Below, one piece after another: positions 400 to 19,979 of a DNA stretch of 26,386 nt. Location: positions 1 through 26,386 of IMG/VR virus record IMGVR_UViG_3300032236_000653; one strand, 5' to 3'. The translations under genes were made by a program, and so were the position numbers. Under the pieces are notes generated by a model. That model did not search any database. It was not told the origin of the DNA and was given only the letters and a program-made list of their open reading frames with translations. Source of the DNA: a virus. The first letter of the stretch is position 1; every line of letters begins with the position of its first letter.

Positions 400-708
400 T
401 TAGAAAACCTCTATTTTCCCAAATTTAATCACGAACTCTCTGAAGTCTTCATCAGAAAGCTTAGCCTTAATCGTATCTTCGTTCGTTGCTCGTTTAGAAA
501 TTTCTAATGGATAGCTACCATTGTTTTGATCTATACGGGCTTGAACAAATTTAGTGTGCTTGCAGGTACTTCTACCTTTGAATCCAGGACAAGTGCAGAA
601 TAAACGACCTAGTAAATCTGAGGTAACCTCATAGATACCTGGGCCAGGTGTGTGGGCTTGGCTTAAGAATACCTGTACCAACCTTGACGCCTGCACTTCG
701 TTCCTCAC
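400..708 (-). CDS. Small SWIM-type zinc-finger protein
   Basis: This 102-aa protein has the signature CxCx(n)CxH: Cys38, Cys40, Cys49 and His51 in the segment FCTCPGFKGRSTCKH. That is the pattern of SWIM zinc fingers, which mediate DNA or protein contacts in bacterial SWI2/SNF2 ATPases and other proteins. Here the finger is nearly the whole protein, with no fused ATPase. It starts at GTG 708, which overlaps the TGA of the AAA+ gene (GTGA), so the two are probably translationally coupled. Its place behind a helicase-loader pair suggests a DNA-binding accessory of phage replication or recombination. The finger is seen directly; the role is inferred. Confidence 0.8.
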   Translation of the reverse strand: MRNEVQASRLVQVFLSQAHTPGPGIYEVTSDLLGRLFCTCPGFKGRSTCKHTKFVQARIDQNNGSYPLEISKRATNEDTIKAKLSDEDFREFVIKFGKIEVF

Positions 709-5635: not shown

Positions 5636-7381
5636 TTAGCTTAAAATTCCTCCGCTAGGATTAACCGTTAATGTTCCAATATTAGGTATTGAATACAGTG
5701 TTGGAATTTCATTAGTAGCGCAAACAATGTCATTTACAGTTAACGCTGTAACAGAGCCTGTTGCAGATGTAGAGCTTACAGGACTAGCAACTAACGCATA
5801 AGAGAATGTATTAGAGGTTACAGCCGTTACAACAAATGTTCCATTAAATGTTGCATCTACGTTAGTTACAGATACTGTTTGGCCAACTGTTAAATTGTGA
5901 TTTACAGAGGTTGTCAATGTAGCAGTATTAGAAGTTAAAGCTTTGTTGTTTACCGTAAAGGTTTGGTCTTGATCAGCTCTAACTAACTTTTGAATTTGTT
6001 GATACGCAACACCATCAACAGATGCTATTGTTGCATGTACGTCAGATACAGAAATTGTGTCTTTAAATACAACGTTGTTTATATTGAATAGGTTGTTTAA
6101 TGCAGCAGTAACATTTGCGGTTACTGATGATTGTCTGTATTGGGTAGCTACTGTTATATTTACCGTTAGTTTAACTCCTACATAGGTAGGTGGTTGAAAT
6201 GTAATAGTTGTATTAGCAGGAGCTTTATCAACTAATGCAGCTAATACCTTTGGAACAGTGTTATTAAATACTGCGCTTGGGGTAACGTTGTCTGATGCAA
6301 CACCAGGGTCTCCAGCTGGTACAAAGTACAAAGTTACCGAAGTGTAAACATCAGCAGAAGCAATAGCTTTAGATACCCCAGTTACCTGCACAGCTAAGTA
6401 TGCATAGTCAGTGAGGGATACTGCTCTGTTGATTGCTCTAATGCTTAATGGGGCGTTAATTCTTATAGAGTCCGTAGATTCTTCGTCAGAACCCCCTGTT
6501 GCCGCGCCATCACCTGAGATACTTATATCTTGATTAGCTACTGTTAGACCAGCAGGGATTGTTCCAGAAGGAACACTAATAATATATTTAATAGTATTAG
6601 ATGCGACGTTACCTATGGTTCCTCCGCCTACACGGTATGTTGCGTAAATCTGTATTCCATTAGGTGGAATACGACCACTTATTCCATCTCCAAACAATAC
6701 ATAGCTAATACCTTCGGCATCAGTAAATACAGAAAATACTGGATCATAACTATTAGCATCAATCAAATACTCAACACGTTGGTATTCAACACCATTGATT
6801 GAAATTTTAACAGAGTCATTAATTACAGAAGTGCTGCTTAGTTGAAACGATTGATTTGCGGTTCCATTAGATGCACCAACAATTTCATCAGCAATAGTCG
6901 TACCTTGTGTGGCTTTTACTGTAGCTGAGCCATTAGTTGCACCACTTTTTGCTGGAACTATTACATCACTATCTGTTTCAAATACAATTTGAGCGGTTGA
7001 CGCGTTAGCTACTAATGAAGTAGCTACTTTTGTTAAAGCTGATACTGTAATAGCCGATGTGGTTGAGTTTTGAAAAGTAAGAGTAACTGTTGAAGCAATA
7101 TTGTTGATTGGGGTGTAGCCAAGAAGATTAGCTAATCTCAATACATTTTGACGTTGAGTTGCGGTGGTAATAAATGATTCATTTGCCGCGCGGTCAATGT
7201 AGTAGTTAAGAAGGTCACCCATGTAGGCAAAGAGCTCAAGCATGGTCATGCCAAAGTCGGCAGGGTCACGGTTGGTCCACGCAGGTGAGAAGGCGGGAAT
7301 GAGAGTTGTCATATCCGCTAGGATTGACGAATAATCCCTAGAGGTGTAGTCCACCGAAGGAACGTAATTATTGGTTGCCAT
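5636..7381 (-). CDS. Baseplate J-like (T4 gp6-like) wedge protein
   Basis: A 581-aa baseplate wedge protein. The N-terminus contains the family-typical region DYTSRDYSSILADM then DPADFGMTMLELFAYMGDLL and YYIDRAANESFI. The middle has the conserved FGDGISGRIPPNG and a GGSDEES/R region typical of Baseplate_J. The C-terminus ends in EIPTLYSIPNIGTLTVNPSGG, as in gp6-like proteins. In contractile tails this protein forms the wedge that surrounds the hub and triggers sheath contraction. A strong GGAGGT site precedes ATG 7381, and the gene overlaps gp25 by 14 nt. Oddly, a small beta module (about 481-546) is inserted just before the C-terminal segment and is absent from the simple family plan. Confidence 0.93.
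   Translation of the reverse strand: MATNNYVPSVDYTSRDYSSILADMTTLIPAFSPAWTNRDPADFGMTMLELFAYMGDLLNYYIDRAANESFITTATQRQNVLRLANLLGYTPINNIASTVTLTFQNSTTSAITVSALTKVATSLVANASTAQIVFETDSDVIVPAKSGATNGSATVKATQGTTIADEIVGASNGTANQSFQLSSTSVINDSVKISINGVEYQRVEYLIDANSYDPVFSVFTDAEGISYVLFGDGISGRIPPNGIQIYATYRVGGGTIGNVASNTIKYIISVPSGTIPAGLTVANQDISISGDGAATGGSDEESTDSIRINAPLSIRAINRAVSLTDYAYLAVQVTGVSKAIASADVYTSVTLYFVPAGDPGVASDNVTPSAVFNNTVPKVLAALVDKAPANTTITFQPPTYVGVKLTVNITVATQYRQSSVTANVTAALNNLFNINNVVFKDTISVSDVHATIASVDGVAYQQIQKLVRADQDQTFTVNNKALTSNTATLTTSVNHNLTVGQTVSVTNVDATFNGTFVVTAVTSNTFSYALVASPVSSTSATGSVTALTVNDIVCATNEIPTLYSIPNIGTLTVNPSGGILS
5744..5941 (-). repeat. Beta insert module, copy 3 (baseplate-J protein)
   Basis: Encodes about residues 481-546: TSNTATLTTSVNHNLTVGQ, then TVSVTNVDATFNGTFVVTAV, TFSYALV and a closing GSVTA. 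It matches the two inserts in the neighbouring gpI-like protein in order of motifs. It separates the strand QTFTVNNK from the conserved C-terminal segment LTVNDIVCATNEIP. Confidence 0.65.
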
Positions 7382-7781: not shown

Positions 7782-8130
7782 TCAGTCCTACTCCCATCCA
7801 TACTGGAAAATTAGGGTCTCCAGCAATAAACATAACCCAAACTTTTTGTCCTATTTTTGGAACTTTTACATGGTCAGAGTGAGAAGCATTCAATGTAACT
7901 GTATGCGTATGCGCAGATAATCCTGATAAAGCGCTACTACTTGTAACCACATCTGTGTGAGCATCATGAGTAGAGTTGTCTGTAACAGGCAGACATGCTG
8001 CTGACCAGTTAGTCTCGTAATCTCCCAAAACTTGTGGCACTTTTAATTTAATCTTATATAAATTATCTGGGTCTTCATTATTGGTACAAAGACCTTCATA
8101 GATGCCATAAAACCTTTTATCGTATGTCAT
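7774..8130 (-). CDS. gp5-like OB-fold spike protein
   Basis: A 118-aa protein starting FYGIYEGLCTNNEDPDNLYKI and containing KLKVPQVLGDYETNWSAACLP. This is the N-terminal OB-fold pattern of T4 gp5, VgrG and Afp8 (Y.G.V....DP...gRvkV..P). It continues to KVPKIGQKVWVMFIAGDP and PVWMGVG. A His/Ser-rich loop (about 52-85: THDAHTDVV, SAHTHTVTL, SHSDH) interrupts the fold. No triple-stranded beta-helix or PAAR tip follows, so this is a minimal hub-capping OB protein; the tip must come from another gene or from the His-rich loop. It overlaps both neighbours (hub gene by 4 nt, gp25 by 8 nt). Confidence 0.85.
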   Translation of the reverse strand: MTYDKRFYGIYEGLCTNNEDPDNLYKIKLKVPQVLGDYETNWSAACLPVTDNSTHDAHTDVVTSSSALSGLSAHTHTVTLNASHSDHVKVPKIGQKVWVMFIAGDPNFPVWMGVGLNE

Positions 8131-9458
8131 AGGATACCTGGAGTTCTATTTAATAATCTTTTTGGTTGAGCGCTTGTGCTCTTATTTGATTGCTGTACAG
8201 GGTTAAGGTTAGCAGTCGCCGTTTTCCAAACAGGGCTGCTTAAATTACTTTTAGCTCTATTTTTTACGTTACCAAATGAACCTTTATTTTGAGGACCTAA
8301 GTTTGGTGCTACTTTTACAATCCTAGTTTTAGGTACAACATTTGTTTGACGAACGCCTGGGATTATGGTTCTTGATGCTCTAGAATTTGTTTTTTGAACA
8401 ACGTTGCCGTTATTCCATTTAGTAGACGGTCCTAATGAGTCAGAGCCTAAATAAAGAACAGTTGTGTATTTATGGCTATTTCTTTTCTCTTCTACAACAA
8501 TGTGTTGGGTTCCAAGCACCGTCCAATAGCCTGAATATAAAGAACCAACACCCTCTAAATATACTGGAAGGTCTGGGCGTAGAAATGGGTCTCCAGCTAC
8601 TTCAGCTACTGCCCTATAAGGAAATTGACTTCTATTTTCCGCGGCCTCAGATTCATATTGAGCAATTGCTGCATTAGTAGCCACAACACTTGTGTCATAT
8701 TTATCAAAAAACTCACGAGAATACTTTAATTTAGTATTTTTATTAGGTTTTTGAGAAGTAGATGAGATATTACTATTTGTTGCAGAATCAAACCCAGAAA
8801 TAGCAATAGCAGCTTTACTATCTCCATCGTATTCTAATGATTCACTTATAGTTGGAGAAAAAGAATAAATTGTAGAACCGCTAGGGTCATTAGCATCCCG
8901 CATTACAAACAATGGTGCTTCACTTTTTTTATTTTCATATTCGTGAAGGAGCGGTTGAAAGTAAATTTCAGTGTTTTCAGTACGCAGACTATAACCAGAT
9001 TGCTTAGCTAATCTGACCATTAATTCCCAATCTGTATGGCCAGCTTGAGATACCTGATCATAGATGCGTGGATGAGGTACAGTATATGCCGCAAAACCAT
9101 GAGCATTAGCAATATTTTGAATTATTCCATCAGCCGATAGGTTAGTCCATACTTTTTGAGATTGATTTTTTAACAACATAGACGAGCTTAAAACCACTAC
9201 TTCTGTTAAAAAAGAACCAGGTTCCCGATTTACATTAACGTGGTGAACATACCCATAAAATGTTCTTGCTTTTCCAGAATCATTTAAAGTAAATGTAACA
9301 GGAGAGCCGTTTTGTACAACATCATATTCAATTCCCCAATCTCTAAATTGAAGTACAGCTATCTCATGTTCGTATCTAGTTTGGTAAAAGTCTAAAGAAT
9401 ACACATGGGCTGGTGGGGTTGATGTGTCAGGAAAGCTGGCAACTACGTAATTAAACAT
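8127..9458 (-). CDS. Baseplate hub protein (gp27 / late control D-like)
   Basis: A 443-aa hub protein. The first 340 residues show the GpD/gp27 plan: SLDFYQTRYEHEIAVLQFRD, then FTLNDSGKARTFYGYVHHVN, SLRTENTEIYFQPLLHEY and a C-terminal YSGYWTVLGTQHIVVEEKR segment. In contractile tails this trimer joins the tube to the spike. After residue 350 the sequence becomes basic and low in complexity (TKWNNGNVVQKTNSRASR, then many Asn/Ser/Lys), a probably disordered tail of about 90 residues that is unusual for the family. The gene overlaps the LysM gene by 8 nt and the OB-spike gene by 4 nt. Together with the OB protein it equals a split Afp8/VgrG. Confidence 0.87.
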   Translation of the reverse strand: MFNYVVASFPDTSTPPAHVYSLDFYQTRYEHEIAVLQFRDWGIEYDVVQNGSPVTFTLNDSGKARTFYGYVHHVNVNREPGSFLTEVVVLSSSMLLKNQSQKVWTNLSADGIIQNIANAHGFAAYTVPHPRIYDQVSQAGHTDWELMVRLAKQSGYSLRTENTEIYFQPLLHEYENKKSEAPLFVMRDANDPSGSTIYSFSPTISESLEYDGDSKAAIAISGFDSATNSNISSTSQKPNKNTKLKYSREFFDKYDTSVVATNAAIAQYESEAAENRSQFPYRAVAEVAGDPFLRPDLPVYLEGVGSLYSGYWTVLGTQHIVVEEKRNSHKYTTVLYLGSDSLGPSTKWNNGNVVQKTNSRASRTIIPGVRQTNVVPKTRIVKVAPNLGPQNKGSFGNVKNRAKSNLSSPVWKTATANLNPVQQSNKSTSAQPKRLLNRTPGIL

Positions 9459-13034: not shown

Positions 13035-13229
13035 TTATTTCCTACCTCTTCTACTTCGTTCTATCCAATTTAACCGTTCTCTAGCGGACATAGATTTAAT
13101 GTCCGCTAAAGTCCATCCAGTAAAAGTTCTAGTTAGAATCTCGTACTGGTCAAGCAGGTTTTCGTAATCTTTTTCGCTATACGCGAAACAAATCAACAAG
13201 ACTAAGTGGTAGAGCGATAAACTCACCAC
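13035..13229 (-). CDS. Second tail chaperone ORF, overlapping in another frame
   Basis: This frame overlaps the end of the gp26-like gene by 53 nt. It is in the +1 (equivalently -2) frame and is open from 13247. Its C-terminal part, SEKDYENLLDQYEILTRTFT then GWTLADIKSMSARERLNWIE, has the GW...EI..M...ER..WI pattern of second tail-chaperone ORFs. The start is uncertain. GTG 13229, or GTG 13226 with AAGG six bases upstream, would give separate initiation. Alternatively, ribosomes shift frame near the upstream TAG, as in gpG-gpT type systems, giving a fused product. The N-terminal hydrophobic residues read from GTG (LYHLVLLICFAY) may not be real protein. The gene ends in TAATG at the tape measure start. 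Confidence 0.65.
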   Translation of the reverse strand: MVSLSLYHLVLLICFAYSEKDYENLLDQYEILTRTFTGWTLADIKSMSARERLNWIERSRRGRK

Positions 13230-13968
13230 AAGCCTTGCAAGCCTTCTTCACCTCCCCAAGGCGTGGGCCTGGGTTACGTGAAATAATCTCTTCAACAATC
13301 TTTGAGCGGTCTTGCATACCCAAAGAAAGAACAGTGCTTGCGCCCATTGATGGTTCATCATTTACAGCTAATACACAACCAGCTAATAGGACCGTATTAA
13401 GTTCTGCCGCGGTTTTATCAGCGTTCTCCAATAGTTTCTTTTGAGTAATACCTGTTGGAAGACCTACTGTGACATAGCCCTTCTTGGTCTTTACTCTCCA
13501 TTCTCTATCAGAGATAGCATCATCTAGCTTCTTTACTGGTACATCTTCGGTTAGGTCAATTGATACTTCTTGCTCTACTCCGCAGCTGCCGCATTGGGTA
13601 CCTAGTTCAATAGTCTCTCCAAAAGTAATCTTTCGGATGCCTACCAAAATAGCGTCACGATCACCAGATAGTAGAGTGTCAAGGTCAGCTAAAGTAGCTT
13701 CTCTTGATCCAACTTTTACCAAACCGCGTTGAAGAAGAATACTAAGAGCTTTACCCGTAGTTGATGCTTTAGCAATAGCTTCTTCATCAACACCGTTTAG
13801 TTCTCTTACTTCTACTGTAGTAACTAAAGCTCCGTTATCTACAAAGCCTCCTGGTAGTTGTACTTCAGGTCCTGAAGGAGCCTTGGTCGCTACGACCTGT
13901 GCAGGCTCCTCCATTGCTTTTTGTACATACTGATTTACTAGTTCTGCATCTGTAATTGTTGTTGTCAC
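13177..13968 (-). CDS. Tail assembly chaperone / T4 gp26-like baseplate protein
   Basis: A 263-aa protein between tube and tape measure genes, where contractile phages encode tail chaperones or T4 gp26-type proteins. Recognisable parts are VEVRELNGVDEEAIAKA, LLQRGLVKVG, LSGDRDAILVGIRKITFGE and two CxxC pairs (Cys126/Cys129 in CGSCG, and Cys244/Cys247 in CKACG) that probably bind zinc. The start is GTG 13968 with AGGAG eight bases upstream; no ATG in frame fits as well. The end overlaps a second ORF in another frame, the arrangement expected for chaperone pairs. It is assigned from position and pattern and not fully certain. Confidence 0.75.
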   Translation of the reverse strand: MTTTITDAELVNQYVQKAMEEPAQVVATKAPSGPEVQLPGGFVDNGALVTTVEVRELNGVDEEAIAKASTTGKALSILLQRGLVKVGSREATLADLDTLLSGDRDAILVGIRKITFGETIELGTQCGSCGVEQEVSIDLTEDVPVKKLDDAISDREWRVKTKKGYVTVGLPTGITQKKLLENADKTAAELNTVLLAGCVLAVNDEPSMGASTVLSLGMQDRSKIVEEIISRNPGPRLGEVKKACKACGEFIALPLSLVDLFRV

Positions 13969-14677: not shown

Positions 14678-16183
14678 TTAAGCCACAGTGATGGTGGTTC
14701 CACCGCTGTATTGACCGATATTGATTACAACGAATTCAGCTGGACGTTGTAGAGCAACACCAACTTGAATATTTACAATTCCATTATCAATAGCTGATTG
14801 TGGATTGTTTTCCGCATCAACTTTAACAAAGTAAGCCTGTGAAGGGTTACCACCTGTTAAGCCGCCTTGAGACCAAAATGATGTTAGGAATGCACTAACG
14901 GTTGCGTTAATGCGTGACCATAGACGAGCATCGTTTGGTTCAAATACTGCGAATTGAGTTAAGTCCTTTAGAGACTTTTCCAAGTAGATTAGTGTACGAC
15001 GAACTGGTACATAACGATCTACATAACCAGCCTTCAAGGTACGAGCGCCCATAACAACAATTCCTGAACCAGAGATATAACGGATTGCGTTAACTGGTGG
15101 GTTAGAGCTGTTTAGAGTATCAAGGTCTGAATTTGTTAGTGGGGTTACTGAAACCGCACCAGCAAGACGAGCTTGAAGTCCAGCAGGAGCTTTGAATACT
15201 CCGCGTGAAGAGTCAGTAGCTGCATACAAGCCTACGACAGCAGCGCCAGCTCCTAGAGTCTTGGTAGCGCCAGCAGGTGCTCCTACTCCAAGTGTTGGGT
15301 CAGCGATTGTGATTTGTGGATAGTAGACAGCAGCTTCAGAGCTTGCTGTGTAGGTAGCAGCCAAGGTTAGTTGGTTAGCAACTGTGTCATTGATACCATC
15401 AACAACAACAAATACATCTCCGCGACCTGTTGCATATGAGATAGCAGCATTTACGGTTGTAGCATCTGTGTATCCTGGGATGTTAAGTACCAAAGATTGT
15501 GCAACGGTGTCATATAGAGGAAGCGCAGCTGTGATGGCTGTGCTATCAACTGTTGCTCCATCAGCACCTGTGCTTAGAGCTTGGTTGGTAAGTGTTGATG
15601 GGTTCTTTGTAGAACCAGTTGATGAAGAGGCTAGGTCTACTAGTGTAATGTAGTTAGAGTTGTTGTTTACAACTGAAAGCGCATAGCGGCTGTCTGTTGA
15701 AACCATTGTAATGTCTGTCCATTGTTCAACAATGTTTGCTGAAGTTGAACCGCCTGAGTAGACAATTAGGTTAAAGTAACCTGAAGTTGTTGAGTTAGTA
15801 ACGCTGATGTTTAGACCGTTACCCCAGGTACCAACGTTAATGGCACTAACCTTTAACGTTGCTTGTGGAGAACCTGCGCGGTCATTTAGGCTACGGGTAG
15901 CTGCGTTAGCTCCGCTTCCTGAAACACGAGTTACAAATGCTTGATTTCCGCCATTAGCAAAGAATAGATAAACAGCTAGTGGTAGATCATTTCCTGTGTT
16001 TGTATTCCAAGAACCAAACTTTGAAACGTATTGGCTCCAAGAAGTAACTAGTGTTGGAACTTCTGGACCACGGTCGTTTGCTCCGATAAAAGCGGCGACA
16101 GTGTTTGATGAAGGACCAACTACTGGTGCGATAGGGTTTAGCGTTTCTTGAACGTACACCCCTGGGCGTAGATATGCTGTCAT
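14678..16183 (-). CDS. Contractile tail sheath protein
   Basis: A 501-aa sheath protein. The N-terminus is the family hallmark YLRPGVYVQETLNPIAPV, followed by VAAFIGANDRGPEVPTLVTS. The C-terminal domain contains YVPVRRTLIYLEKSLKD, FEPNDARLWSRINATVSAFL, AYFVKVDAENNP, a region VNIQVGVALQRPAEFVVINI and a final beta strand. The sheath polymerises around the tube and contracts to inject the genome. The middle (about 110-330) is Thr/Ser/Ala-rich and beta-rich, the variable outer domain. AAGGAG precedes ATG 16183, after a 38-nt gap without a gene. Confidence 0.97.
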   Translation of the reverse strand: MTAYLRPGVYVQETLNPIAPVVGPSSNTVAAFIGANDRGPEVPTLVTSWSQYVSKFGSWNTNTGNDLPLAVYLFFANGGNQAFVTRVSGSGANAATRSLNDRAGSPQATLKVSAINVGTWGNGLNISVTNSTTSGYFNLIVYSGGSTSANIVEQWTDITMVSTDSRYALSVVNNNSNYITLVDLASSSTGSTKNPSTLTNQALSTGADGATVDSTAITAALPLYDTVAQSLVLNIPGYTDATTVNAAISYATGRGDVFVVVDGINDTVANQLTLAATYTASSEAAVYYPQITIADPTLGVGAPAGATKTLGAGAAVVGLYAATDSSRGVFKAPAGLQARLAGAVSVTPLTNSDLDTLNSSNPPVNAIRYISGSGIVVMGARTLKAGYVDRYVPVRRTLIYLEKSLKDLTQFAVFEPNDARLWSRINATVSAFLTSFWSQGGLTGGNPSQAYFVKVDAENNPQSAIDNGIVNIQVGVALQRPAEFVVINIGQYSGGTTITVA

Positions 16184-17426: not shown

Positions 17427-17630
17427 TTACTTCTTTTTGATCCGCTTTGCTAGTGCTTTATCCATTTTGGCATCTGCCTTAGGCGATGGGTGCTTCGCAT
17501 CCATCTTCTTATCGGACTTCTTAAAAGCCGCCTTTTGCTTTGAGGTCATACCCTTCATGACTTTAGCATCTTGCTTCTCATCAGATTTCTTTGACATCTT
17601 TTTTCCCATACATCCGCAGGTTGCACACAT
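17427..17630 (-). CDS. Lys-rich small protein with CxxCxC head
   Basis: A 67-aa protein, last of the micro-gene stack and directly before the terminator. It starts MCATCGCMGKKMSKKSDEK, with a CxxCxC head like that of the 32-aa Cys-rich peptide two genes upstream, followed by a highly basic Lys/Asp/Ala-rich helix ending ALAKRIKKK. About a third of residues are Lys. The Cys triplet plus Met may bind metal, and the tail may bind nucleic acid or simply be disordered. It starts two bases after the previous stop. No characterised family recognised; the MCATCGC start recurs in small phage proteins, as far as I know without an assigned function. Confidence 0.8.
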   Translation of the reverse strand: MCATCGCMGKKMSKKSDEKQDAKVMKGMTSKQKAAFKKSDKKMDAKHPSPKADAKMDKALAKRIKKK

Positions 17631-17632
17631 AG

Positions 17633-17773
17633 TTACATTCCCTTCTTACGGTTCATTGACATTTTCTTACCTTTAGCTCCCTTAAGAGCTTTGAAGTCAG
17701 CGCCTGTAATCTTGTTAGTAGGAGCAGCAGCGCCTGCAATCTTCTTTTGCTTTGGTGATAGTTCTTTAGCCAT
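17633..17773 (-). CDS. Lys-rich 46-aa small protein
   Basis: Reads MAKELSPKQKKIAGAAAPTN, then KITGADFKALKGAKGKK and ends MSMNRKKGM. ATG 17773 overlaps the TAA of the Cys-rich peptide (TAATG). The form SPKQxKIA...P.NKITGADF is one I associate with small conserved phage proteins of unknown function. It is strongly basic and probably mostly helical. Confidence 0.7.
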   Translation of the reverse strand: MAKELSPKQKKIAGAAAPTNKITGADFKALKGAKGKKMSMNRKKGM

Positions 17774-17871
17774 TACTTAGCCTTTCTAGCAGCTTTGCAA
17801 GTTGCACAGGTGCACTTGCATCCTTTTGCTGGTTTTCCAGCCTTACATTTACATCCGCATTTAGCACACAT
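17773..17871 (-). CDS. 32-aa mirror-symmetric Cys-rich peptide (metallothionein-like)
   Basis: ATG 17871 overlaps the TAA of the gene before it (TAATG) and its own TAA overlaps the next ATG. The peptide has eight Cys in 32 residues, at positions 2, 5, 7, 9, 18, 20, 22 and 25. This gives CxxCxCxC, an eight-residue KAGKPAKG spacer, then CxCxCxxC, a mirror image. The rest is Lys/Ala/Gly. Two four-Cys clusters are ideal for holding one Zn, Cu or Cd ion each, as in metallothioneins. No aromatic residue is present. The frame is clear and the coupling is strong; the metal-binding role is inferred from composition only. Confidence 0.72.
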   Translation of the reverse strand: MCAKCGCKCKAGKPAKGCKCTCATCKAARKAK

Positions 17872-18032
17872 TATTTCTTACCCTTCTGAGCCATCTTTTC
17901 CATTTTCTTAACGCCATACTTCTTGATGCCAGCAGCCGCAGCTACAGCAGCAGGATTCTTAGCGCCAGACTTTTTAGCTTCAGCTTCAATCTTTTTAAAG
18001 CGGGAGCCACTACCGAGCTTTGCTTTTGCCAT
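17871..18032 (-). CDS. Basic 53-aa small protein
   Basis: Starts MAKAKLGSGSRFKKIEAEAKKS, continues GAKNPAAVAAAAGIKKYGVKKME and ends KMAQKGKK. It overlaps the gene before it by 23 nt and the next by one base. The pattern LGSG.RF......G.KNPAA.AA.IG.KKYG recurs in small phage proteins of unknown function. It is highly basic and helical. Confidence 0.75.
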   Translation of the reverse strand: MAKAKLGSGSRFKKIEAEAKKSGAKNPAAVAAAAGIKKYGVKKMEKMAQKGKK

Positions 18033-18153
18033 TTTTCTTTCCTACTTTCTTAGGCAATTTTTTGCCTTTAGGCGTTTCTTCTTGCCACTGTTTTGCCATC
18101 TCTGGATGAGTAGCATACATCCAACCCTTTTGGGCTTGTGATTTAAAAGGCAT
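18010..18153 (-). CDS. Basic 47-aa small protein (MPFKSxAQ type)
   Basis: Reads MPFKSQAQKGWMYATHPEMA, then KQWQEETPKGKKLPKK and ends GKSKAR. ATG 18153 overlaps the TAA of the collagen-like fibre gene (TAATG), so it is probably translated by ribosomes finishing the fibre. The form MPFKS.AQ..WM.A.HPEMAK.W...TP....LP.K is a recurrent small phage protein, function unknown. It overlaps the next gene by 23 nt. Confidence 0.8.
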   Translation of the reverse strand: MPFKSQAQKGWMYATHPEMAKQWQEETPKGKKLPKKVGKKNGKSKAR

Positions 18154-19979
18154 TATCGTGCAATCTCCGTAATCTTTACATAGAAGGCGCCGTCAGCATA
18201 GACACTTAAAGTATCATCTGAAGAATCTCTACGAGCGTTTATTGCCAAGGTATATCCAGTAGGACTGCTATTTGTAATTCTACCAGCAAGCGGGAATAAG
18301 GTAGAGCTGCGAGTTCCCCCACCTGAAAAGTTTCCCCAATATTGGCGTTGAGCCGCAAATTCATTAGAGTTCCATGTTAATTGGGAAAAGAAAGAGTCTT
18401 CCGCTCCACCGTTTACATAATAGCGAGCATATACTTCAACAAAAATATAAGAAGATGATGAAGCTGGTGTGTATGTTTTAGAAGCAATAGCTGAATAAGT
18501 ATTTGTGCTTTGTGTATATGTAGAAGTAAATCCCATATCTGAAGCAGACCATATTGTTGTTTTAATATGTTGCCCTGCCGTATAAGCTCCAGGGGTAATA
18601 GCGCCAGATGTTCCTAAAGCACCGCCATCACTTAAAGATAAGATAGTAGTTGAATAGGCATTATCAATAACTTCAATACCGCCCGTATTGTTCATACGAA
18701 TAGACTTCTTAGGGTTTGAGGCGCCAGAGATAGTGCTTTGAAGAGTCACTAATCCAGCGTAAGAAGAGCCACCATGTTGGTTACCAGATGTAATGGTAAG
18801 TGGGTCGGTAGTTGTTGCACTGTAAGCAAGAGTTAATGGGGCAGTAGGAAGAGGGCCTTGTGTGCCTTGAACGCCTTGCGTTCCTGTAGAACCTTGTAAG
18901 CCTTGAGTACCTTGAATAGAGCCAGCTACTTGAGTAAGTGTAATAATGGCTGATGGCACAGCAGGAGCAGGAGAAGCTGCAGCAATGTAATCAATAACGA
19001 TATTAGTGTTATCTGTTTGCCACACTAATTCAAGATAATCATTAGCTGCTAGTTGAAGAGTAAAATTCCAAGCGGCGACTATATAAGGACTATTAGTGAT
19101 TACCGCAATGTTTGTGTTGGTATCTGGGACAGTTGTACCGTTCTTTTTTAACCAAATTTGTACAGTATTTCCACTCCCACCGCCGCCAGTGTTATGAAGT
19201 TGTAAAGAGAATTGAAGGTTATAAACACCTGCAGTAAGAACTTTTAATTGAGAACCGTTTTGTAGAGTTACTCCCTGACCGTTTGTATCTGTGTGGTCAA
19301 GCGTTATTGCATAAGGGGTGTTTGTATATGTAGCGCTTTGGGTAGTGTCTGACCACCAAGCTCCCCAGTTAGCAACAGTTCCGCCAGCGCCTTGAGCACC
19401 TGTTGTGCCTTGCGCTCCTGTGTAACCTTGAACACCTTGCGTTCCTTGTGTTCCTGTAAATCCAGTTGTACCAGTTGTACCTTGTGCACCCTGCGCACCA
19501 GATGTTCCTGTGTAACCTTGAACGCCTGTGGCTCCTTGAGAACCTGTTGCACCTTGCGTACCTTGCGCACCTGTTGTGCCTTGTGCACCATTTAAACCAT
19601 TTGCGCCTTGTGTACCAATTGCACCTTGTGTACCAGTTGCGCCAGATGTTCCTTGAGTTCCTTGAGCACCAGTGTTACCAGTAGAACCAGTTGAGCCTTG
19701 AGAACCTGTAGAGCCTTGAACACCCTGAACACCTTGACTGCCTGTTGTTCCTTGAAAACCTACATTGCCCTGAACACCAGTGCCACCTTGTAGCCCTTGA
19801 GTTCCCTGAGCGCCTGTAGAGCCCTGTAAGCCCTGTGTACCTTGTACGCCTTGTCCTGTTGTGCCTTGCGCTCCCTGGGCTCCCTGAGAGCCTGTAGCGC
19901 CCTGTGCACCGTCATTTCCTGCGGGACCTGGAGAACCTTGTGGCCCTACAGTCGCCCCTGTATAGAGAATATGTGCCAT
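18153..19979 (-). CDS. Collagen-like tail fibre with C1q-like domain
   Basis: A 608-aa fibre protein. After MAHILYTGAT, residues 12-200 are about 62 Gly-X-Y triplets, mostly with Gln or Thr in the third position (GAQ, GTQ, GVQ, GTT) and almost no Pro. One two-residue break lies near 42-43. Residues 203-352 form a beta-rich C1q/TNF-like domain (YAITLDHTDTNGQGV, AGVYNLQFSLQL, VQIWLKKNGTTVPDT, NDYLELVWQTDN), which in related fibres trimerises and seeds the collagen triple helix. A second short collagen stretch (354-377) leads to a C-terminal head (378-608) that could bind the receptor. The gene is coupled to its neighbours by TAATG on both sides. Confidence 0.9.
   Translation of the reverse strand: MAHILYTGATVGPQGSPGPAGNDGAQGATGSQGAQGAQGTTGQGVQGTQGLQGSTGAQGTQGLQGGTGVQGNVGFQGTTGSQGVQGVQGSTGSQGSTGSTGNTGAQGTQGTSGATGTQGAIGTQGANGLNGAQGTTGAQGTQGATGSQGATGVQGYTGTSGAQGAQGTTGTTGFTGTQGTQGVQGYTGAQGTTGAQGAGGTVANWGAWWSDTTQSATYTNTPYAITLDHTDTNGQGVTLQNGSQLKVLTAGVYNLQFSLQLHNTGGGGSGNTVQIWLKKNGTTVPDTNTNIAVITNSPYIVAAWNFTLQLAANDYLELVWQTDNTNIVIDYIAAASPAPAVPSAIITLTQVAGSIQGTQGLQGSTGTQGVQGTQGPLPTAPLTLAYSATTTDPLTITSGNQHGGSSYAGLVTLQSTISGASNPKKSIRMNNTGGIEVIDNAYSTTILSLSDGGALGTSGAITPGAYTAGQHIKTTIWSASDMGFTSTYTQSTNTYSAIASKTYTPASSSSYIFVEVYARYYVNGGAEDSFFSQLTWNSNEFAAQRQYWGNFSGGGTRSSTLFPLAGRITNSSPTGYTLAINARRDSSDDTLSVYADGAFYVKITEIAR
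18852..18920 (-). repeat. Second short Gly-X-Y stretch
   Basis: Encodes residues 354-376 of the fibre (GTQGLQGSTGTQGVQGTQG), a short collagen-like link between the C1q-like domain and the C-terminal head. Confidence 0.8.
19380..19946 (-). repeat. Collagen-like Gly-X-Y repeat tract
   Basis: Nine-base repeats encoding about 62 Gly-X-Y triplets. Several six-residue units recur (GAQGTQ, GTTGAQ, GVQGYT), giving imperfect DNA repeats where slippage or recombination could change fibre length. Confidence 0.9.

Follow-up and report, generated by a model that had tools for sequence, protein, structure and literature searches.

Metallothioneins typically hold zinc clusters, which are unusual among structural zinc sites, and one of them, SmtA, has a zinc site resembling a treble clef (PMC3197139). 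The bacterial metallothioneins SmtA/BmtA (Pfam Metallothio_Pro; PDB 1JJD) are small, cysteine-rich proteins of cytosolic type. The 32-residue phage peptide described here shares these traits, but differs from SmtA/BmtA in the fixed mirror spacing of its cysteines and in being encoded in phage virion modules.

The window, that is, the whole 26,386-nucleotide stretch analysed, is a 26.4-kb record of a contractile-tailed phage with sheath, hub, baseplate and fibre genes. The 8-Cys gene lies in a cassette of tiny genes, and the features referred to below are as follows.

5636-7381: baseplate J gene
8127-9458: GPD-type hub gene
14678-16183, minus strand: gene of the tail sheath, located on the downstream side of the cassette; a cysteine-independent marker for relatives
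17427-17630, minus strand: cassette member of 67 residues, an MCATCGC head followed by tail (a), KQDAKVMKGM..KAAFKKSDKKMD..ALAKRIKKK
17633-17773, minus strand: cassette member of 46 residues, tail (b) SPKQKKIAGAAAPTNKITGADFKALKG without a cysteine head; its ATG overlaps the 8-Cys stop by one base
17773-17871, minus strand: 8-Cys mini-protein gene of 32 residues, MCAKCGCKCKAGKPAKGCKCTCATCKAARKAK, identified by ORF translation, relatives and dN/dS
17797-17820, minus strand: second cysteine cluster, CKCTCATC (residues 18-25), with a helix predicted at residues 23-30
17845-17868, minus strand: first cysteine cluster, CAKCGCKC (residues 2-9), with a knuckle-like CxxCG
17871-18032, minus strand: cassette member of 53 residues, a basic protein (GSGSRFKKIEA..) whose stop overlaps the 8-Cys ATG by one base
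17881-17887, minus strand: Shine-Dalgarno-like AGAAGGG, 9 nt 5' of the 8-Cys ATG, from sequence reading
18010-18153, minus strand: cassette member of 47 residues, a basic protein (MPFKSQAQKGW..) matching phrog_1375 (E 7e-5), function unknown
18153-19979, minus strand: collagen-like tail fibre gene, the upstream flank of the cassette

Translation of the ORF, whose strand the initial annotation had not given and which runs on the minus strand from an ATG at 17871..17869 to a TAA stop at 17775..17773, confirmed the peptide described in the initial annotation: 32 residues, eight mirror-symmetric cysteines, a KAGKPAKG spacer and no aromatic residues. The cysteines occupy positions 2, 5, 7, 9, 18, 20, 22, and 25, giving the spacing CxxCxCxC-x8-CxCxCxxC. 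Every mirrored pair of positions adds up to 27, and the second cluster is thus the exact reverse of the first. Cysteine makes up 8 of the 32 residues (25%) and forms four CxC pairs, a combination typical of metallothioneins. The peptide lacks histidine and contains 10 lysine or arginine residues and no acidic residue, which puts its net charge near +10. For the pattern itself, the number of chance occurrences expected in a random window of the same composition is about 4e-8. The one-base overlaps of its ATG with the upstream stop and of its stop with the next ATG are as would be expected for translational coupling.

Relatives were sought in IMG/VR viral contigs with the strict pattern ATG-C-x2-C-x-C-x-C-x7-G-C-x-C-x-C-x2-C, used in place of a loose cysteine pattern without the ATG and Gly that yielded many poly-Cys chance translations. 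At least 119 stretches matched. With other loci included and a poly-Cys artefact, one of 98 rows, left out, the family comprises at least ~97 distinct proteins of common frame and spacing. Across 84,980 prokaryote genomes the strict pattern had zero matches, which serves as empirical evidence that it seldom arises by chance. An 80-residue head-plus-tail form also had no relative in prokaryote genome contigs. Among the matches listed, pooled dN/dS was 0.12-0.15 over the 19 codons left free by the search pattern, and in the relatives the entropy of codon position 3 was 1.56 versus 0.82-0.83 at positions 1 and 2; these are summary values over related sequences, not a formal test. Both cysteine codons are freely used among relatives. 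The recurrence of frame and spacing, the low dN/dS and the third-position variation establish that 17773-17871 encodes a genuine, strongly conserved gene. The initial annotation had named a lack of conserved frame or cysteine spacing in related phages as grounds for refutation; this check left the annotation standing.

Exactly one 8-Cys gene was present in each of the 14 contigs searched for further copies. Neither the 32-mer nor the 80-residue form had a direct tblastn match in cultured phages, a search in which the low-complexity filter of BLAST can hide queries of this kind and which thus falls short of establishing absence. Streptomyces phage BRock, among the closest cultured sheath relatives (~40%), lacks a tiny Cys-rich ORF in the surroundings of its sheath gene. 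One family member (ICSKCGCGCKAGKPAKGCKCTCATCKAARKKK; L125, 5296) has no ATG at the usual place, perhaps due to a non-ATG start or a sequence error.

The cysteines were required by the pattern scan, and their invariance in the resulting alignments is therefore ascertained; the family HMM and a set of loci chosen by tail-sheath homology alone are free of this effect. Reading upstream of the sheath gene in 31 such loci revealed all eight cysteines in 12 and 6 or 7 of the eight in none. Nearly all of the loci lacking the 8-Cys template have other cysteine heads. The family HMM returned only full-pattern members at E below 0.38. Separate scans of 2.9 million viral contigs for spacers of 4-7 and 9-15 residues turned up nothing that was a genuine family member in frame. 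Since neither other spacers nor forms with 6 or 7 cysteines were found, the cysteines form an all-or-none set and the spacer has a fixed length of 8. Outside the cysteines, G6 of the CxxCG is conserved in 71 of 81 relatives and A28 in 76 of 81. K16-G17 is invariant in alignment A1, G17 being itself part of the search pattern.

An AlphaFold2 model built without metal from 46 relatives has a mean pLDDT of 87 and a pTM of 0.51, and contains a helix at residues 23-30 that starts inside the second CxxC. The same head assignment and three helices are predicted for the 80-residue head-plus-tail form. The only bridge in the model involves residues 10 and 13 and does not indicate the symmetric hairpin, centred at 13.5, that might be expected. 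Foldseek searches against the PDB returned nothing for the 32-residue peptide and only matches at E>6 for the 80-residue form. The CxxCG resembles a zinc knuckle, and the predicted CxxC-helix resembles a treble clef. Together with the fixed spacing, these two elements are easier to reconcile with a compact zinc mini-domain than with a flexible metallothionein. The fixed spacing and all-or-none cysteines also point to structural rather than storage zinc.

With cysteines spaced in mirror fashion, the two CxxC pairs could make up an outer site and two CxC pairs an inner one, which leads to the proposal of a Zn2Cys8 domain. The eight cysteines would bind two Zn(II) ions, with C2, C5, C22, and C25 forming the outer site and C7, C9, C18, and C20 the inner site. 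The constant 8-residue spacer may serve as a turn, and the last CxxC may cap the short helix. The initial description of the peptide as a metal-binding mini-protein is partly upheld: the conserved frame and spacing support a real phage cysteine mini-protein, which probably binds metal.

The genomic context was assessed in 132 member loci, some overlapping on one contig. They comprise 85 loci with a myovirus sheath, 11 with a siphovirus capsid-connector region, 14 with Phage_capsid_3 and fibre genes, 18 others whose neighbours are genes for terminase, Dps, DUF6321 or lysis proteins, and 4 that fit no class. The sheath gene is on the 8-Cys strand in 76-77 of the 132 loci, the siphovirus major capsid or connector gene in 11, and Capsid_3 and fibre genes in 14; the close neighbours detected at member loci are all on this strand. 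Some members adjoin lysis or Dps genes, not head or tail genes. DUF6321 genes lie within 0.72 kb of the 8-Cys gene in ~42 of 132 loci, for example at L079 1123-1398 and L069 2261-2563. In PHROG profiles, DUF6321 is the C-terminal domain of much larger phage proteins.

WhiB is an actinophage marker in the literature (PMC10202952, PMC6802176). It occurs in 15 of 24 large contigs with members, including one of 95.8 kb that shares 77% sheath identity with the window, and the hosts are thus probably actinobacterial. For the window, itself a fragment in whose 26.4 kb no WhiB was seen, this assignment would follow from its relatives.

The cassette that holds the 8-Cys gene encodes tiny basic proteins and is surrounded by virion genes. 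In 29 of the 31 sheath-chosen loci, one or more tiny proteins begin with MCxxC.C. Cassette heads are of the 8-Cys type, the 6-Cys type (MCKSCGCGCSKPNCNGACKK) or the MCxxCGC type, and are interchangeable on shared basic tails. Tail (a), KQDAKVMKGMSPKQKSAFEKADKKMD..ALAKKVKKK, is found with all three heads and also headless; in the window it is carried by the protein at 17427..17630, and in relatives it is joined to the 8-Cys head. Tail (b), SPKQKKL..DGKLEGSDFAALRKKKK, occurs with several heads, and tail (c), AANKKFAKK.., with the MCxxCGC head. The 6-Cys and MCxxCGC proteins share the genomic place, the N-terminal MCxxC.C start and the tails of the 8-Cys proteins, but have 3-6 cysteines and no second mirrored cluster. 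Homology of their heads to the 8-Cys head is plausible, although the matches are sub-threshold (E 0.4-10).

Tail (b) is EF-hand/dockerin-like with a best E of 0.003, below Pfam cut-offs, and this assignment is only a lead. Three Cys-headed tiny proteins (L158 829-1002, L143 2980-3144, and L093 962-1114) carry a DxDxDGxLxxxDF loop in their tails that is EF-hand/dockerin-like at sub-cut-off level. The acidic ligands of this loop are absent from the window copy of tail (b) (17633-17773).

In siphoviruses, the 8-Cys head forms the N terminus of proteins of 138-352 residues, the genes for most of which lie after one of the major capsid and head-tail connector genes and before the other. Some of these long fusions contain glycine-zipper stretches. 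In L029 5046-6104, L113 2826-3641, and L237 466-1509, V[ES]K[GSA]/[IV]SKA motifs recur and parts of the sequence are rich in glycine. The repeats may represent protease sites, or the fusions may be membrane-active virion proteins.

The reading we favour, to which we give somewhat less than an even chance as a whole, is that the peptide is a compact metal-thiolate mini-domain, likely Zn2, and a late accessory protein associated with the virion or DNA. It would be synthesized late, translationally coupled to the other tiny basic proteins of the virion gene module. It would then contact nucleic acid or a virion protein, either by itself or when it forms the N terminus of a longer protein. The place in virion modules, the basic coupled neighbours, the net charge and the position at the N terminus of head-module proteins all favour this role. 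The basic residues and neighbours suggest nucleic-acid binding. The earlier proposal of a virion component fits this context, both in the virion modules and in the fusions to head-module proteins, and the peptide may reside in the virion.

A speculative extension, which we consider unlikely, is that many actinophages shuffle metal-binding heads (8-Cys, 6-Cys, and MCxxCGC) on basic or EF-hand-like tails as virion-packaged, metallated DNA-binding mini-proteins, sometimes with Dps, that condense or protect the genome. We know of no comparable phage system.

The main rival to the virion- or DNA-associated role is metal or thiol buffering. The peptide would form a metallothionein-like, multi-metal thiolate cluster of zinc or copper, sequestering metals or scavenging oxidants, either in the late phase of infection or inside the virion, beside Dps-type iron proteins. 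This reading is possible, albeit on the unlikely side. The cysteine content of one quarter, the CxC pairs and the lack of aromatic residues agree with it. Its best support comes from Dps-type ferritin genes, which share the strand of the 8-Cys gene and lie ~0.8 kb or nearer to it in 9-10 member loci (for example L079 1408-1842 and L264 2195-3115) and occur in several different contexts. Freshwater phages also carry several ROS-defence and redox genes (PMC6802176), the former being in line with buffering. However, the virion modules in which most members lie have no Dps gene, and some members form the N terminus of a longer protein. The linkers of metallothioneins are tolerant of length change, unlike the spacer fixed at 8 found here, and intermediates with 6 or 7 cysteines were not encountered in the 31 sheath-chosen loci. 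The lack of histidine and of any match to metallothionein models or SmtA further argues against buffering.

The initial annotation had also suggested that the peptide loads metal into zinc proteins, pointing to several CxxC or SWIM proteins in the window. No specific support for such loading was found, and the accompanying count was only partly right. The window encodes one SWIM-like protein, a 102-residue protein at 400-708 (minus strand) with CTCPGFKGRSTCKH and a CxC...CxH motif, and one protein with two CxxC pairs (CGSC and CKAC), a 263-residue protein at 13177-13968 (minus strand) between the presumed tail tube and tape measure genes. The MCATCGC ORF (17427-17630) makes a third. A homologue of the 13177-13968 protein is retained on the same strand in 52 member loci.

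It is quite unlikely that the peptide is a zinc finger for regulation or host takeover, which as a small and basic protein would alter late expression by binding RNA polymerase or the nucleic acid of host or phage. The charge of about +10, the predicted treble-clef-like CxxC-helix and the single copy per contig are consistent with such a finger, but all context classes place the gene in a virion or lysis cassette, the head is fused to head-module proteins, and there is no similarity to regulators.

A role in thiol-disulfide redox through CxxC/CxC, or as a released peptide with four disulfides, is very unlikely. Although CxxC and CxC are redox-type motifs and redox genes occur in freshwater phages (PMC6802176), the sequence is basic and of cytosolic type with no visible signal peptide, there is no thioredoxin-like fold, and the joined Lys-rich tails have no further cysteine.

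A chance ORF or a nucleic-acid element instead of a protein can be dismissed as extremely improbable: the ORF is very short and missing from Pfam, PHROGs, and NCBIfam, but its codon-level conservation refutes the first reading, and an RNA structure was rejected since folding of ten homologues did not go beyond dinucleotide shuffles (z of -1.57 for the window and -1.4 to +2.0 for the other homologues).

The family was finally compared with known proteins. Members follow MC-x2-C-x-C-x-C-x7-GC-x-C-x-C-x2-C, and their shared reading frame is under purifying selection. None of 46 members matched any Pfam or PHROGs v4 family at E<=10, and phrog_28167 appeared only at E 0.015 for one long fusion (L113). 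No NCBIfam model or PDB structure matched the peptide. The peptide and cassette matched no PADLOC family, which led us to reject a connection with the defence families of PADLOC. Nothing relevant on metallothioneins of phages, on small phage proteins rich in cysteine or on DUF6321 was found in the literature. The 8-Cys family is thus new, being in no public protein-family library searched. With 32 residues, eight cysteines and a fixed mirror spacing, it is among the smallest candidate metalloprotein folds. The domain is widespread in phages yet absent from these libraries, and it is simple to synthesize. Its location among virion genes and at the N terminus of head-module proteins also offers a way into many phage proteins that are tiny, basic and of unknown function, among them the DUF6321 and phrog_1375 families encoded nearby.

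The second half of the peptide (GCKCxC..C) resembles the Cys loop of PhnP-type MBL-fold hydrolases (GCxCxxC). PRK02113 was matched by 12 of 46 members and PhnP by one, at chance-level E (0.88-2.2); the resemblance is short, local and non-significant, and the MBL fold is absent. Metallothionein as a family assignment is not supported either. SmtA, whose letters were verified against 1jjd, aligned with alignment A1 over 1 column in hhalign, and the 8-Cys peptide has no sequence or profile similarity to SmtA/BmtA, no His ligands and another order of cysteines. The treble clef and zinc knuckle are resembled in the N-terminal CxxCG and in the CxxC at a helix N terminus, by sequence and AlphaFold2 model. 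The 8-Cys peptide differs from them in its two extra inner CxC pairs, its length of only 32 residues and the lack of a Foldseek match to solved structures. The only viral match in the structure search was A0A6J5RC25 (UniProt), from an uncultured Caudovirales phage, which shares 64% identity over 31 aligned columns and has a TM-score of 0.81 to the model. The family is absent from Pfam and PHROGs, but this entry indicates that so short a gene, which the initial annotation had thought liable to be missed, is not always overlooked by gene callers. A0A6J5RC25 is longer (61 residues) and uncharacterized, and is very likely a database member of the 8-Cys family.
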